Assembly: GCA_002163135.1 (NCBI GenBank)
Contig: MAAN01000038.1
Coordinates: 1 to 60,945 of the forward strand
DNA: 60,945 nucleotides
Reading direction: 5' to 3'
Source of the DNA: Alphaproteobacteria bacterium 46_93_T64
GTDB taxonomy: Bacteria; Pseudomonadota; Alphaproteobacteria; Sneathiellales; Sneathiellaceae
Every line of letters begins with the position of its first letter. Within the stretch, counting starts at the first letter, position 1. A program made the translations under genes and the position numbers. A model generated the notes under the pieces. It worked only from the letters and a program-made list of their open reading frames with translations, was not told where the DNA came from and made no database searches. Below are positions 23,117 through 39,424 of the stretch, piece after piece.

Positions 23117-24095
23117 AAACACACCAACATTCGGTTCCGTCTGTAGTGCCGCTGAAACCCTAAAGGGACATGCAATACGTACGCCTCTTCTGGAATCCCC
23201 TGCACTGAACGAAATTCTTGGCTGTCGGCTCTTTCTAAAGTGCGAAATGCTGCAAAAAACAGGCTCTTTCAAATTTCGAGGCGCTTATAACGCTATTTCC
23301 AAGCTAACCAGCCCCCAAAAAGAAAAAGGGGTTTTCGCTTACTCCAGTGGCAACCACGCCCAAGGGATTGCACTTGCAGCGAAAATGATGGGGGTCAAGG
23401 CAACAATTCTTATGCCTGAAGACACTCCGGAAATTAAAGTTGCAAATACCAAAGGGTATGGTGCAACGGTCTTGAGTTATGACCGCTACAAGGGATCTCG
23501 CGAAGAAATCGGAGACAGAATAACTGCGGAACAACAACTCACGCTGATCAAACCCTATGACAATGTAGATGTCATATCAGGTCAGGGCACAGTTGGACTT
23601 GAGATCATTGCACAATTGGCAGAACTTCATCTGAAAGCCGACTGCATTGCGGCCCCATGCGGCGGTGGCGGCTTGCTAAGCGGTATTTCATTGGCAGTGG
23701 CGACAGATTGCCCAACCACACAATTATTTGCTGCTGAGCCTGAAAACTTTGATGATGCAACCCGCTCACTAGCCGCGGGAGAACGTGTTGCAAATACTGG
23801 TAACCATAAAAGTATTTGCGATGCGATCATGACTCCGACGCCTGGAGAAATTACTTTTCCAATACTTAAAGAAAAACGCGCAACTGGATTGGTCGTTTCT
23901 GAAAAAGAAGTCACCGAAGCAATTCGAACTGCATTTAACTATTTTAAAGTTGTAATTGAACCAGGCGGGGCTGTTGCACTGGCTGCATACCTAAGCGGTA
24001 AAACAGATATTAAAGACAAAATTGTTGTTGCCGTGGCTTCTGGGGGAAATATTGATCCAACCCTATTTTCAAAATTGTTAATCCCAAGCGAGTAA
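23109..24095 (+). CDS. threonine/serine dehydratase (PLP fold type II)
   Basis: A 328-residue pyridoxal-phosphate enzyme of the threonine ammonia-lyase/serine racemase group. The PLP lysine is in TGSFKFRGA, followed by SSGNHAQGIALAAK, and the phosphate loop PCGGGGLLSG. There is no C-terminal ACT regulatory domain, so it resembles the short catabolic or biodegradative form rather than full-length IlvA. It overlaps the hydrolase gene by 8 bases and is followed by a strong terminator. Confidence 0.9.
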   Translation: MSENTPTFGSVCSAAETLKGHAIRTPLLESPALNEILGCRLFLKCEMLQKTGSFKFRGAYNAISKLTSPQKEKGVFAYSSGNHAQGIALAAKMMGVKATILMPEDTPEIKVANTKGYGATVLSYDRYKGSREEIGDRITAEQQLTLIKPYDNVDVISGQGTVGLEIIAQLAELHLKADCIAAPCGGGGLLSGISLAVATDCPTTQLFAAEPENFDDATRSLAAGERVANTGNHKSICDAIMTPTPGEITFPILKEKRATGLVVSEKEVTEAIRTAFNYFKVVIEPGGAVALAAYLSGKTDIKDKIVVAVASGGNIDPTLFSKLLIPSE

Positions 24096-24126
24096 CACTA
24101 GTCATACTTAACTAATAATTATCCAA

Positions 24127-24157
24127 GAGAGGCACTTGAATGTTGCCTCTCTTTTTT
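24127..24157 (+). terminator. rho-independent terminator
   Basis: Perfect 8-bp stem GAGAGGCA / TGCCTCTC (24127-24134 with 24144-24151), 9-base loop, then six T. It closes the pepN-to-dehydratase stretch and insulates the peptide operon downstream. Confidence 0.92.
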
Positions 24158-24717
24158 ACGGCTCCCTACCTTTATCGAATAAACAGAATTGTAAATATGC
24201 GCGGAAAACGTGCTGTTACATGTAAGAAACAATTGTATCCAACCGATAAAATTTACAATAAAAATTGATATTGACCCTGTTTCGATTTCATTGAAAATTT
24301 TTGCTTATAAATCAAATAATTACGAAAGAAAGAAATCCATTTTCAGATATAGCTCAGTTATAAATGAAAATATCTTTTCTGTATTAGCAGTCCCCTCACA
24401 TTTCAAAACATAGTCTTTTTGAATCAAACATAAATTTTATTATTTGTTATATTTCAAATAAGTACGCCATTTTCCTAAAAATTAATTCAGAGAACCGCTC
24501 ACTACATTTTTATATGATGTGTCAAGAAATGACAACAAATGCGATCTCCTTTACAGCCTTGCTTCAATTAAATAGCGTTTATTTCACAGCTGGTGCAGGT
24601 CCTCCAAATTCGAGAACATACAGCGGCTTTTGACCAAGTGAATGTAACCATTTTTCGTACAACATGACGAATATGTACATCTAATCATTCGAAAATAATT
24701 TTTGAGGAATAACGATA
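24158..24717. other. long AT-rich leader upstream of the repeat-peptide operon
   Basis: About 560 bases with no convincing gene. The last 60 bases hold an inverted repeat GTACA (24657-24661) / TGTAC (24674-24678) and the GAGGAA ribosome site at 24704-24709. Such a long leader ahead of a small two-gene unit suggests regulated transcription, but I cannot pick a definite promoter. A 67-codon frame at 24210-24413 looks accidental. Confidence 0.5.
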
Positions 24718-24885
24718 ATGAAAAATATTTCAGTAAAATCCCAAACACCAGCTTCAACTAAAGATAGCTCTAAAGTTCGCCTTGGGAATATGAGTCCCGC
24801 TTTCCGTGTGAAAGAAACACCCACGGCGGCCGTTGATAAGCAAGCGGTGCGTCTGGGAAATATGAGACCTGCATTTCGTGTTTAA
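24718..24885 (+). CDS. 55-residue tandem-repeat peptide, candidate RiPP-like precursor
   Basis: Small gene with a good GAGGAA site 8 bases before the ATG. The product has a 19-residue hydrophilic leader-like start, then the 12-residue motif VRLGNMSPAFRV (residues 20-31), a 12-residue spacer, and VRLGNMRPAFRV (44-55) ending exactly at the C-terminus. The two DNA copies differ at eight codons by synonymous changes and at one by an amino-acid change (Ser to Arg), which points to selection on the peptide. It has no cysteines and no hydrophobic signal. The next gene follows after 18 bases with its own ribosome site, so the two form an operon. Function is inference: a substrate peptide with duplicated cores, processed or modified by the neighbour or by enzymes encoded elsewhere. 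Confidence 0.8.
   Translation: MKNISVKSQTPASTKDSSKVRLGNMSPAFRVKETPTAAVDKQAVRLGNMRPAFRV
24775..24810 (+). repeat. first copy of the 12-codon peptide motif
   Basis: Encodes VRLGNMSPAFRV. It pairs with the copy at 24847-24882; the repeat period is 24 codons. Confidence 0.9.
24847..24882 (+). repeat. second copy of the 12-codon peptide motif
   Basis: Encodes VRLGNMRPAFRV immediately before the stop codon. Eleven of twelve residues match the first copy although nine of twelve codons differ. Confidence 0.9.
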
Positions 24886-24903
24886 TAAATAAGGAATGTA
24901 ACA

Positions 24904-25695
24904 ATGGGTGTTCAAGCCACCGCTCCCGAACTAGATGTGCAAAGAAAAGTAGCGACGTCTTCAATTATCAAATTTTATAGGCTGATTTCTGACTGTCCTG
25001 TGCCTCAACGTGCTGATCGATCGGCCGGTGGCTTGATACCAACAAGGGCATTTCGCTTTTGTGAACCAATGACGACGGCATCTGCATTTGGATGGTATAT
25101 ATTCCCCCCGATGGATTTCAGTATCCTATGGGACGGTAATGATATGTACTGGCGATATGGAGATGTTGAAAGCTGGTATCCATTACAAGCAGCACAGTAT
25201 CCAGACTTCTCCACCCAATTCGATAATAAATGCCCTGAAAATATCAAAGGTTTTTCACCGCCATTCATTTCTTCAGCGCCAGAATCTGGTGTTCTAAAAA
25301 TTTGGAGCGGATTAGTCGCCAAAACAGCGACTGATTGGAGCCTACTTGTCAGAAAACCTGCAAACCTTCCAGGAAGCCAGCTATTCGAGCATTTTGAAGG
25401 CATCGTTGAAACAGACCATTGGTTCGGTCCTCTTTTCACAAACCTTCGTATTACGAAAACCGATATCCCCGTTCTGTTCAAGCGTGAGATGCCACTCATG
25501 CAAATCCAGCCTCTCCATCGTTCCACTTATGCTGAATCCAGTTTAAAAAAATTCGATTTTGTGGAAGATATGAACGACTTTACAATGGACGACTGGAATG
25601 ACTTTCATAAAACTGTGATTGAACCTGGTAGTGCGAATACGAGGGAAAGAGGTTTATATGCCAAACAGTCTAGAAAACTGCGCAAGCATCAGTAA
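24904..25695 (+). CDS. DUF6065-like protein, partner of the repeat peptide
   Basis: A 263-residue, probably cytosolic protein. By recall its N-terminal half (FYRLISDCP, QRADRSAGGLIPTRAFRFCEP, ASAFGWYIFPPMDFSILWDG) matches the DUF6065 family, whose function is not known to me. The sequence is unusually rich in aromatic residues, with many Trp, Tyr and Phe in residues 60-100, has an acidic C-terminal part and a basic tail (KQSRKLRKHQ). No standard catalytic motif (kinase, radical SAM, YcaO, MNIO) is visible. AAGGA lies 8 bases before the ATG, 18 bases after the peptide gene. Inferred role: binding or modification of the peptide. A terminator follows. Confidence 0.72.
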   Translation: MGVQATAPELDVQRKVATSSIIKFYRLISDCPVPQRADRSAGGLIPTRAFRFCEPMTTASAFGWYIFPPMDFSILWDGNDMYWRYGDVESWYPLQAAQYPDFSTQFDNKCPENIKGFSPPFISSAPESGVLKIWSGLVAKTATDWSLLVRKPANLPGSQLFEHFEGIVETDHWFGPLFTNLRITKTDIPVLFKREMPLMQIQPLHRSTYAESSLKKFDFVEDMNDFTMDDWNDFHKTVIEPGSANTRERGLYAKQSRKLRKHQ

Positions 25696-25712
25696 AACTT
25701 GCAAAACATAAG

Positions 25713-25743
25713 AAAAAGTCTCGTTTGTTATAACGAGGCTTTC
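25713..25743. terminator. shared convergent terminator
   Basis: Stem GTCTCGTT / AACGAGGC (25718-25725 with 25732-25739, one wobble pair). On the minus strand it is followed by TTTTTC, on the plus strand by TTTC, so it can serve both the DUF6065-like gene and the chemoreceptor gene. Confidence 0.75.
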
Positions 25744-25769
25744 CCATTGAATTGATTGGTGAAGTAACT

Positions 25770-27437
25770 TTATCCAGCCCGTACATTCTCAACAAAATCA
25801 GAGACTTGATGTCTCAAATTTTCAGCCTGTTGTGAGAGCTCTCTTGACGCGGAAAGTACATCTTGAGATGCTTGATCTGACTCGTTCGCTGCTTCATTTA
25901 CTGCCATGATGGATGAAGAAACCTCTTGCGTACCAGCCGCTGCTTTTTGAACGCTGCTTGATATCTCCTGCGTCGCAGCTCCTTGCTCTTCCACTGCCGA
26001 TGCAATGGCCGCAGCAATCTCGTCAACCTTTTGAATTGTTCCCGCGATACCTTGGATCGCACTAACAGCCTCTGCTGTCGATGATTGAACTTTTGAAATC
26101 TGATCCGAAATTTGCTCGGTCGCCTTACCAGTTTGCGAAGCCAAATTCTTAACTTCAGAGGCCACAACGGCAAATCCTTTACCGGCATCTCCTGCACGTG
26201 CAGCTTCAATCGTTGCGTTGAGCGCCAGAAGATTTGTTTGTTCTGCAATACCCTGAATCAAAAGAACCACTTCACCAATATTCTGTGCGCCCTCATCCAA
26301 ACCCTGAATAAGAACGTTGGCTTTGTTGGCTTCATCAACTGCCTGATTTGTTACATTCGAAGATTGTGCCACTTGTGCGCTGATCTCACGAATTGAGGCA
26401 GAGAGTTCCTCGGCTGCGGAGGCAACCGATTGCACGTTTTCAGTTGCATTGTTCGAAGCTGCAGATACCGAATTTGCTTGTGTTGTCGTATGTTGAGAAA
26501 TATTCGTCATATTTTGTGCTGTAGCTTGCATTTCAGTTGCTGCAGACGCAACGCCATCTACGACAGATCCAACCGATGTTTCAAAGGTTCCGACCATTGA
26601 AATTAGTGCTTCCTGTTTCTCCACTTCGGCTTGTTTTTTAGCAACTTCTTCTGCTTGTATCTGTTCCTCTCGCTGTTTATCAGATTCTACCCTATCCTTT
26701 TCCGTCTGAAGTCGCGCCTCTTCCTGTTCAACTTCAAGCTGGCGCTTTTGGATAGCAGAGTCTTTAAACACCTGTATCGCGTTTGCCATATTTCCGATTT
26801 CGTCTTCCCGATCCAGCTCAGAAATTTCTATATCCAGGTTACCTGAAACCAAATCCGCCATTTCTTCAGTCATTCGACCAAGCGGAACAGTCAACTTCCT
26901 AAAGGAGACAACGACTACGCCGGAAATTACCGCAAGTATTATCAACGCGGAAATTAGAGCCGCAATAATCAATCCTGTTCTTTGACTGGCTATTGTCTTG
27001 TGCGAAAGTTGCAGGCTAAGTGTCCCGATGACCTCTTTATTGTCATCCTCTATTTGAACAATTTCGCCGACGCTCTGTGTTACTGTTTCTGCATCAGCTG
27101 CCTCGCCATGAGAAAATAACTGCTTTCCATCAGGATCCAAGACCTCAACAAACAGAAAGTCCGGATCCTGAGCCAAGTCTTGCAACAGTTTTTCAGCCGC
27201 CACATTATCCAAATCCCACATGGGATTAACAATGGCATTCGATTGCAAAGCTGTAATTATGTCTGCTCGTGCTTGCAGTTTTGTTTTCTGGGTATTTTGA
27301 TAAGCAACAACACCAATCGTCGCGGCTATTATAAGAACTAATAACGTCAGCCCAATAACAGACGCCAAGACTTTCGCTTGTAACGAAAGTCCCGAGCGAG
27401 GCACGCTGATTTCAGATGCTGTTGTATCATTTTCCAT
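25770..27437 (-). CDS. methyl-accepting chemotaxis protein
   Basis: A 555-residue chemoreceptor that controls the CheA kinase. Seen: first membrane helix at about residues 22-46, a periplasmic sensor domain of about 125 residues ([16 protein letters not shown]), a second helix at about 176-200, a HAMP domain ending near [16 protein letters not shown], a glutamine/glutamate-rich coiled segment, and a cytoplasmic signalling domain with the hairpin-tip region [37 protein letters not shown]. It lacks an obvious C-terminal pentapeptide for CheR. It is followed upstream, in the same direction, by a periplasmic binding protein that may present its ligand. Confidence 0.95.
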
Positions 27438-38236: not shown

Positions 38237-39424
38237 TCAACCTAACTGCCGAAGAGTTTTATCTACTTTAACGGCGATATTCTGTCCTGAACGCCCCATT
38301 TTACCTGAGACCATCCCAATACCCCCGCAGCGAAGCACAACCGGGCTCGTGGGAGATGCATTCAACATAACAGTGTCTCCAACTTCTAAGGACAAGATCT
38401 CATTCAGGGGCATTTCCTGTTCATCAAGAACAGCTTGAATTTCAACTTCTGTTGCCCACAGCTCAGTCGCCAGATGGTTTTCCCAAATACTGTCTCGTCC
38501 AAATTTTTCACCCATAAACATTTGAAGCAGTAGTTCGCGTACAGGTTCTAATGTTGCATAGGGAAGCAACAATTCCAAACGTCCGCCGCGATCTTCCATA
38601 TCGATACGCAACTTTATCAAAATTGCAGCATTGGCAGGCCTTGCAATCGTGGCAAACCTAGGGTTTGTTTCAACCCGTTCTTGTGTGAAATTGACAGGGC
38701 TAAGTGGCTCAAACGCAGCACACATATCGGTCAAAATTACACTAACCATTCGCTCAACAAGATTACGTTCGATCGTTGTATAAGGCCGTCCTTCAATCCG
38801 CATTGCTGCTGTCCCGCGGCGACCGCCAAGAAGCACATCCACAATCGAATAGATGAGCGAACTATCCACCATGATCAAACCATAGTTATCCCATTCTTCT
38901 GCGCGAAATACGCTCAATATAGCTGGGAGAGGGATTGAATTTAGATAATCTCCAAATCGAATGGAAGTAATGTTATCAAGGCTGACCTCTACGTTATCTG
39001 ATGTAAAATTACGAAGAGATGTCGTCATCATGCGTACGAGGCGGTCAAACACCACCTCCAGCATGGGCAATCTTTCGTAATTTACCAGTGCGGAGTTAAT
39101 AATGGCTTTAATACCGGACTTTTCACCGCTACCATCGCCATCCATATCAAAACCAAGCAGGCTATCGATTTCATCCTGGTTTAGAACGCGGGTCGCCTGA
39201 CCACTTGCCGCCTCGTTAATACTAGCTCCGGCCGGCGCTTCAGGCTCAGGTTCAGGGTCTCCGCCCATTGCGGCAGCCATATCCATTTCGCCGTCATCCG
39301 CCGCCATCGCAGCAGCCATGTCCATTTCGTCATCGTCTGCCGCCATAGCAGCAGCCATGTCCATTTCGCCGTCTTCGTCTGCAGCCATGGCCGCAGCCAT
39401 ATCCATTTCTTCTTCGTCAGCCAT
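38237..39424 (-). CDS. fliM: flagellar motor switch protein FliM with N-terminal repeats
   Basis: C-ring protein that binds CheY-P and sets rotation direction. The 395 residues start with a four-copy acidic/methionine-alanine repeat: EMDMAAAM begins at residues 6, 20, 33 and 46. An alanine/proline linker follows, then the CheY-binding motif LNQDEIDSLL at 81-90, usually placed within the first 20 residues. The middle CheC-like domain (FTSDNVEVSLDNITSIRFGDYL) and the C-terminal SpoA domain (LSLEVGDTVMLN) look complete. It lies 8 bases after fliL. Confidence 0.97.
   Translation of the reverse strand: MADEEEMDMAAAMAADEDGEMDMAAAMAADDDEMDMAAAMAADDGEMDMAAAMGGDPEPEPEAPAGASINEAASGQATRVLNQDEIDSLLGFDMDGDGSGEKSGIKAIINSALVNYERLPMLEVVFDRLVRMMTTSLRNFTSDNVEVSLDNITSIRFGDYLNSIPLPAILSVFRAEEWDNYGLIMVDSSLIYSIVDVLLGGRRGTAAMRIEGRPYTTIERNLVERMVSVILTDMCAAFEPLSPVNFTQERVETNPRFATIARPANAAILIKLRIDMEDRGGRLELLLPYATLEPVRELLLQMFMGEKFGRDSIWENHLATELWATEVEIQAVLDEQEMPLNEILSLEVGDTVMLNASPTSPVVLRCGGIGMVSGKMGRSGQNIAVKVDKTLRQLG
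39263..39409 (-). repeat. tandem repeat in the 5' part of fliM
   Basis: Four degenerate copies of a 39-42 base unit encoding EMDMAAAMAADxx. Copies differ by silent changes. Unit lengths are multiples of three, so copy number can change without frameshift. Confidence 0.9.

Follow-up and report, generated by a model that had tools for sequence, protein, structure and literature searches.

Four kinds of described system stand closest to the locus considered here. Multi-core precursors of ribosomally synthesized and post-translationally modified peptides (RiPPs) hold short repeated cores separated by spacers, in variable copy number and with one dedicated gene. The trimeric dUTPases (PF00692) are a second kind, and a third is formed by dUTPase complexes with the protein partner Stl, which is a folded repressor. 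The fourth kind is the canonical membership of DUF6065 (PF19541). Our locus lies on contig MAAN01000038.1 of Alphaproteobacteria bacterium 46_93_T64, and the whole analysed stretch of 60,945 nucleotides (nt) is called the window. It is a small gene for a repeat peptide followed, after 18 nt, by a DUF6065 gene, with a Shine-Dalgarno-like sequence before each. The pair shares with multi-core RiPP precursors all the traits just listed, but it has no conserved leader and no known RiPP enzyme was found in it. Its DUF6065 protein differs from PF00692 in being about 100 residues longer and in lacking motifs I, III, IV and V. Three Stl complexes (8p8o, 7dlv and 7pwx) are among its fold matches, a likeness drawn without sequence comparison, and Stl differs from an array of short units. 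The window protein passes the curated cut-off of PF19541 as canonical members do, whereas those members, at about 33 distinct places, have no repeat peptide alongside.

The pair looks like a real, unexplained two-gene system. It is tight, widespread and found in many Alphaproteobacteria (one scan gave 203 relatives of the partner), yet the open-licence papers searched contain no mention of DUF6065 or PF19541 and no description of the pair. The strings KVRLGG and VRLGNM are absent from those papers, and GKVRLG occurs only in two that by title treat other subjects. A preliminary description of the window had called the pair its best candidate for an undescribed system, and this agrees with what we found. 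We tentatively favour a two-gene module in which the peptide is a multi-copy docking array for DUF6065. On that reading, a fold of nucleotide enzymes would have been adapted as a multivalent hub. Should the peptide be a precursor instead, ribosomal peptide chemistry would gain an enzyme fold, and with it a new class within a known kind.

The repeat unit and its co-occurrence with DUF6065

The repeat gene of the window encodes two units (Table 1). In a 12-residue framing, copy 1 (24775-24810) and copy 2 (24847-24882, then TAA) are separated by a 12-residue spacer (24811-24846). Eight codons differ synonymously, one differs non-synonymously (AGT Ser, AGA Arg) and three are identical. Over the first 11 codons the proportion of synonymous differences (pS) is 0.83 and that of non-synonymous differences (pN) is 0.04. 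At default limits a finder of DNA repeats missed the two copies, which fits old copies that have diverged at silent sites. Within-array pairs pooled from nine Sneathiella arrays give a pN/pS of 0.118 for units and 0.53 for spacers of equal length. As a class the spacers are under weaker constraint than the units. The preliminary description had noted this open reading frame (ORF) with its silent differences and had read them as selection on the peptide. Both points hold, the first in the codons of the window and the second in the contrast between units and spacers.

A window-type DUF6065 (E below 1e-90) is found in 9 of 24 genus genomes. All nine carriers, eight of them besides the window genome, have a short repeat ORF directly upstream on the same strand. 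The copies per array, from L003 to L011 in order, are 2, 4, 4, 3, 5, 2, 4, 7 and 2, so the variation in copy number that the preliminary description had suggested looking for does exist. A search of the 24 genomes with a two-unit profile finds an array in exactly the nine DUF6065 carriers; the 15 genomes with neither gene include several incomplete ones (56-86%). A threonine dehydratase gene, the same in all nine carriers, precedes the pair. It was also found in twelve non-carriers, where the 1.5 kb seen after it hold no unit and a convergent open frame instead. Since carriers share the site and these non-carriers lack the pair there, the pair looks like a fixed locus of a Sneathiella subclade and not a recent insert. 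A mobile cassette was considered and rejected because the neighbour is the same in all nine. In L011 / L056, from the Sneathiella group, the DUF6065 frame runs on into an open frame of 425 residues with a C-terminus unlike its relatives, perhaps through a frameshift or an assembly error.

The wider family was collected with a profile of ten proteins. One genome scan gave the 203 relatives, of which the best 80 were kept, and a search of viral contigs added 10, making 90 loci. The 80 include five Sneathiella loci (L050-L053, L056) that the genus count covers as well. A scan of genome contigs with a single DUF6065 protein gave no match; the alignment query succeeded. All six-frame ORFs in these loci (977,591 bases) were searched with a hidden Markov model (HMM) built on 22 units chosen by hand. 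At E<0.1 it matches 74 ORFs, which belong to 69 loci; every one is on the coding strand and ends 2-393 nt before the DUF6065 match, and nothing elsewhere in these bases matches. The seeds often come from the same loci, so the matches are partly by construction, but the emptiness of the remaining sequence is not. Where 300 nt or more lie upstream, the model scores in 63 of 75 loci; with less, it scores in 6 of 15. Inspection by eye adds eight loci of the 75 in which the unit is single, weak or diverged (L083, L096, L099, which is the weakest, L108, L117, L125, L127 and L133). Copy number ranges from 1 to at least 19 across the family, with single-unit peptides at some loci. The contigs of a number of loci break off inside the array, as expected of long repeats.

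The pair spans Acetobacteraceae, Reyranella, Rhizobium, Bradyrhizobium and Sneathiella. Strains that carry it include Sneathiella glossodoripedis JCM 23214, S. chinensis LMG 23452, Rhodopila globiformis DSM 161 and Roseomonas rosea DSM 14916. On a Rhizobium plasmid the array has three units (HIANKSPAF type, with G8 replaced by Ala) and the DUF6065 protein is 42.7% identical, with an MFS transporter gene next in line. Two contigs labelled as betaproteobacterial metagenome-assembled genomes (L096, L117) have a diverged array (KVEVGNGAIAPKVALHRTKTPV) 5' of DUF6065. Among 385 class genomes the two-unit profile finds arrays in six, five of which have a window-type DUF6065. The sixth (G094) has no DUF6065 match, and its array stops 98 nt before the contig end. 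Orphan arrays, sought with two-unit profiles in the 24 genus and 385 class genomes, were rejected among the matches listed, the sole array without a DUF6065 match being the one cut by a contig end.

The unit has the form D-x-G-[KR]-[VI]-R-L-G-x-x-x-[PR]-x-[LF]. The 72 loci compared yield 64 distinct consensus units, of which 63 have G8, 61 V/I5, 60 P/R12 and 56 D1; the one exception for G8 is a row out of register (L130). Within positions 1-14, residue 10 varies most freely. The near-invariant residue is thus only a glycine, and no residue with an obvious side-chain chemistry is invariant. Asn9, Met10 and Phe14 of the window unit are substituted elsewhere, so the preliminary suggestion that Asn, Met and Phe are possible targets of modification is weakened. 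The preliminary remark on cysteine holds for the window peptide, which has none, and not for arrays elsewhere, with 0.6% Cys.

Leaders have a median length of 14.5 residues (48 ORFs). Mean pairwise identity is 13% in the 10 residues before the first unit versus 47% in the first unit itself (38 arrays with leaders of at least 10 residues, start codons being set by a simple Shine-Dalgarno rule). A conserved leader of the RiPP kind was not found in these arrays. In five ORFs the start lies at or within a unit. L060 is a fragment of an array interrupted by masked bases; the other four (L068, L088, L090, L115) are leaderless arrays of one related type that begin at the unit. The distance from unit position 14 to the stop has a median of 2 residues; in six outliers it is 17-142. 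The repeat period varies by lineage, from about 13 to 26 residues by eye. The median isoelectric point (pI) is 10.9 for arrays and 5.7 for DUF6065 proteins (65 each, array frames being taken stop to stop). The more alike two DUF6065 proteins are, the more alike their units tend to be (Mantel r 0.66, 0/2000 permutations), though shared descent may explain part or all of this.

The partner protein and its predicted fold

DUF6065 is predicted to have the trimeric-dUTPase fold. AlphaFold2, given 65 sequences, models the window protein with a predicted local distance difference test (pLDDT) of 90.6 and a predicted template modelling score (pTM) of 0.82. The PDB rows that Foldseek and VIA-align list for this model are all dUTPases. 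In a viral structure library the first ten rows are uncharacterised or unnamed, and below them dUTP diphosphatases prevail among unnamed proteins.

The catalytic motifs tell another part of the story. Simple patterns for dUTPase motifs I, III, IV and V match in 0 of 65 DUF6065 proteins, and a loosened motif II matches in 6 of 65, wherever placed. The same patterns applied to nine true dUTPases find motifs I to IV in all nine and motif V in eight. Judged by these motifs, dUTPase activity of DUF6065 is unlikely, because four of the five are absent in 65/65. A separate true dUTPase is encoded elsewhere in the window's own genome. R36, C53, R150, N154, E165 and N180 are invariant (65/65), as are W173 and G175, and E169 is present in 61. 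Of the pairwise alignments with dUTPases (513 made, 57/65 proteins), 218 place it, 178 of them opposite the dUTPase catalytic Asp, and such alignments score like shuffles. One can imagine the peptide supplying dUTPase motif V in trans, given the GGF resemblance of Acetobacteraceae units, but the signal is too small: among unit-dUTPase pairs the best dUTPase window is motif V in 8%, compared with 4.5% for shuffled units and 13% for the 28 GG-type units.

The window protein matches PF19541 with E 3.9e-15 and 56.4 bits against a cut-off of 26.6, its best stretch spanning residues 121-213 only. The canonical sample is 54 locus records, of which 20 were re-fetched with longer flanks. These records (405 kb, overlapping) give one unit match, of E 0.045 and about 2.6 kb from the gene (L187), and none else below 0.1. 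In 21 canonical loci no neighbour recurs in three or more except one unidentified ORF cluster in five, the gene itself having been located by pattern in 12 of the 21. The preliminary description had named DUF6065 as the partner. This is right for the window-type subfamily and does not extend to the canonical DUF6065 genes of this sample, beside which no such ORF was found.

Docking, modification and other readings

We argue that DUF6065 quite probably binds the unit, either as ligand or as substrate, since this is the simplest cause of the pairing, the charge complement and the co-variation. A ligand is preferred because single-unit and leaderless forms exist, no reactive residue is invariant and no maturation genes accompany the pair across lineages. 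In the docking array that we tentatively favour, DUF6065 would be a repurposed dUTPase-fold protein without most of the standard catalytic motifs. The small gene would make a basic, probably unfolded peptide with one to many short docking motifs, and each unit would bind a groove of the acidic DUF6065 protein. A peptide with several units could tie several DUF6065 trimers together or load several sites at once. Copy number would set valency or dose and drift by recombination, with the units held by selection for binding. A nearby BTAD-type regulator may control the module in many lineages.

It must be noted that several results weigh against the docking array. Four of the 75 testable loci (L078, L079, L098, L103) have no unit. 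The class-wide search was made with the two-unit profile and is taken among the matches listed, so single-unit or orphan peptides may be missed. A fusion of the two genes was not noticed, and no dedicated search for one was made. A profile comparison with true dUTPases is not significant, pairwise alignments to dUTPases score like shuffled sequence (z 0.54), and the one match from a profile search of PDB sequences is at chance level (E 0.33). Since sequence methods show no significant link, the relation to dUTPases rests on the predicted fold. Finally, variable copies, spacers and BTAD regulators suit a multi-core RiPP too.

That alternative is a possible one and remains close to the docking array. 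In it each unit would be a core that brings its own recognition sequence, DUF6065 would modify it, and a general protease would release the product. The enzyme, possibly a nucleotide-using or hydrolytic one, would have evolved from the dUTPase fold. The strong purifying selection on near-identical units, the looser spacers, the range in copy number, the single dedicated partner gene and the invariant polar residues of DUF6065 all suit it, as does the MFS gene on the Rhizobium plasmid. So do the regulators, since BTAD-type regulators control secondary metabolism in Streptomyces. The BTAD/TPR family is present in 38 of 90 loci, two of these being short fragments; of the 35 loci whose flanks reach 3.5 kb or more on each side, 21 have it. 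Six members were scanned with Pfam: four have BTAD and two have TPR, one of these with a weak Trans_reg_C. The regulator is placed up- or downstream on either strand, and this variability speaks for a functional link. No homologue was found in the 21 canonical loci, a rough control from other taxa. Of the three BTAD matches in the window's own genome none falls on this contig, and the regulator therefore does not belong to the system everywhere. Eight loci have TldD/PmbA in their flanks, a type of protease that some RiPP pathways employ.

Against the RiPP precursor, the leaders are unconserved and four arrays start at the unit, although recognition inside the unit stays possible. The glycine is its sole near-invariant residue. 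No protease or exporter adjoins the pair across lineages in the 25 neighbour clusters that occur most often. Clusters named by eye include an ABC ATPase (7 loci), a DMT-type permease (7), a TctC-like protein (9) and a peptide-binding protein (6); these transport-type clusters and TldD/PmbA are scattered in position or lineage-bound. The 13 neighbour proteins scanned with Pfam contain no RiPP-modifying family except TldD/PmbA, and Pfam and NCBIfam scans of the pair find no peptide-modifying family. We know of no RiPP enzyme with the dUTPase fold, and a literature search joining the two gave no paper. The idea of a modified-peptide precursor, advanced in the preliminary description, is therefore weakened by the lack of a modifying family in the pair, the unconserved leaders and the predicted dUTPase fold. 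A bolder version would make the pair a new class of ribosomal peptide, with tandem D-x-G-K-V-R-L-G-x-x-x-P-x-L cores, up to at least 19, modified without a conserved leader by an enzyme derived from the dUTPase fold. That fold is not known to us to act on peptides, and we consider this version possible but less likely than not.

An improbable scenario is a regulatory switch, where the peptide would be an inhibitor or allosteric effector of a nucleotide-binding or nucleotide-acting DUF6065, by analogy with Stl on phage dUTPase. The predicted fold, the dUTPase chains from Stl complexes among the fold matches and the position of E169 would suit it. However, four motifs are absent, the E169 alignments are not significant, simple inhibition needs no multi-copy arrays, and the genome already has a separate true dUTPase. 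A beta-solenoid array with DUF6065 as assembly or capping partner is rejected as very improbable: AlphaFold2 without an alignment does give the 267-residue L121 array a regular beta pattern (pLDDT 81.4, pTM 0.71), but confident array models of this kind are a reported class of AlphaFold2 artefact, one- and two-unit peptides exist, and a repeat period that differs between lineages is ill suited to one solenoid.

Features of the window and viral relatives

Table 1. Positions of the gene pair and its parts in the window.
Feature	Position	Strand	Basis or remark
GAGGA, Shine-Dalgarno-like	24704..24708	+	9 nt 5' of the peptide ORF ATG; read by eye
Repeat-peptide small ORF, MKNISVKSQTPASTKDSSKVRLGNMSPAFRVKETPTAAVDKQAVRLGNMRPAFRV	24718..24885	+	55 residues; computed pI 11.5; no cysteine
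Repeat unit 1, DSSKVRLGNMSPAFRV	24763..24810	+	Sequence, unit profile, codon comparison
Spacer KETPTAAV	24811..24834	+	Sequence
Repeat unit 2, DKQAVRLGNMRPAFRV	24835..24882	+	Stop codon directly after
AAGGA, Shine-Dalgarno-like	24891..24895	+	8 nt 5' of the DUF6065 start; read by eye
Partner gene, window-type DUF6065	24904..25695	+	263 residues; PF19541 match, AlphaFold2, fold searches, motif test
Hairpin 3' of DUF6065 gene, possible terminator	25715..25742		Fold z -2.59; weak

The hairpin is matched in stability by 1 of 200 shuffles. A terminator scan gave 1 site with 1.3 expected by chance, so the evidence for it is weak. A promoter scan gave 5 sites with 5.1 expected, and an Rfam search of 23900-25900 gave no match. 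PADLOC assigned 0 families to the window pair, one array and one further DUF6065. In PHROGs the window DUF6065 matches phrog_7084, of unassigned function (E 9.2e-9), and the L060 array gives scattered weak matches typical of repeats.

In all ten viral-contig loci (L130-L139) a terminase-type gene and a second conserved gene without a Pfam match lie 3' of DUF6065, at about 1.6-2.4 kb and 3.1-3.9 kb; the terminase is confirmed by Pfam in L132. A YeiH-like gene (by eye) is 5' of DUF6065 in three viral-contig loci. The pair in these contigs may mark a prophage edge or be prophage cargo. A distant DUF6065 homologue occurs in the haloarchaeal Halorubrum phage HF2 (L049, 3557-4441), where neighbours are annotated as ribonucleotide reductase and N-6 DNA methylase. 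Two Sinorhizobium medicae plasmids (L046, L047) have a distant DUF6065 gene with an S8 peptidase gene near it. The gene directly 5' is annotated as an S-adenosylmethionine-dependent methyltransferase in L047 and is a shorter hypothetical protein in L046.

Elsewhere in the window, a protein labelled FliM-like by eye (38237-39424, minus strand) has an N-terminus of four tandem EMDMAAAM(AADD) copies, which is unusual for a flagellar switch protein.
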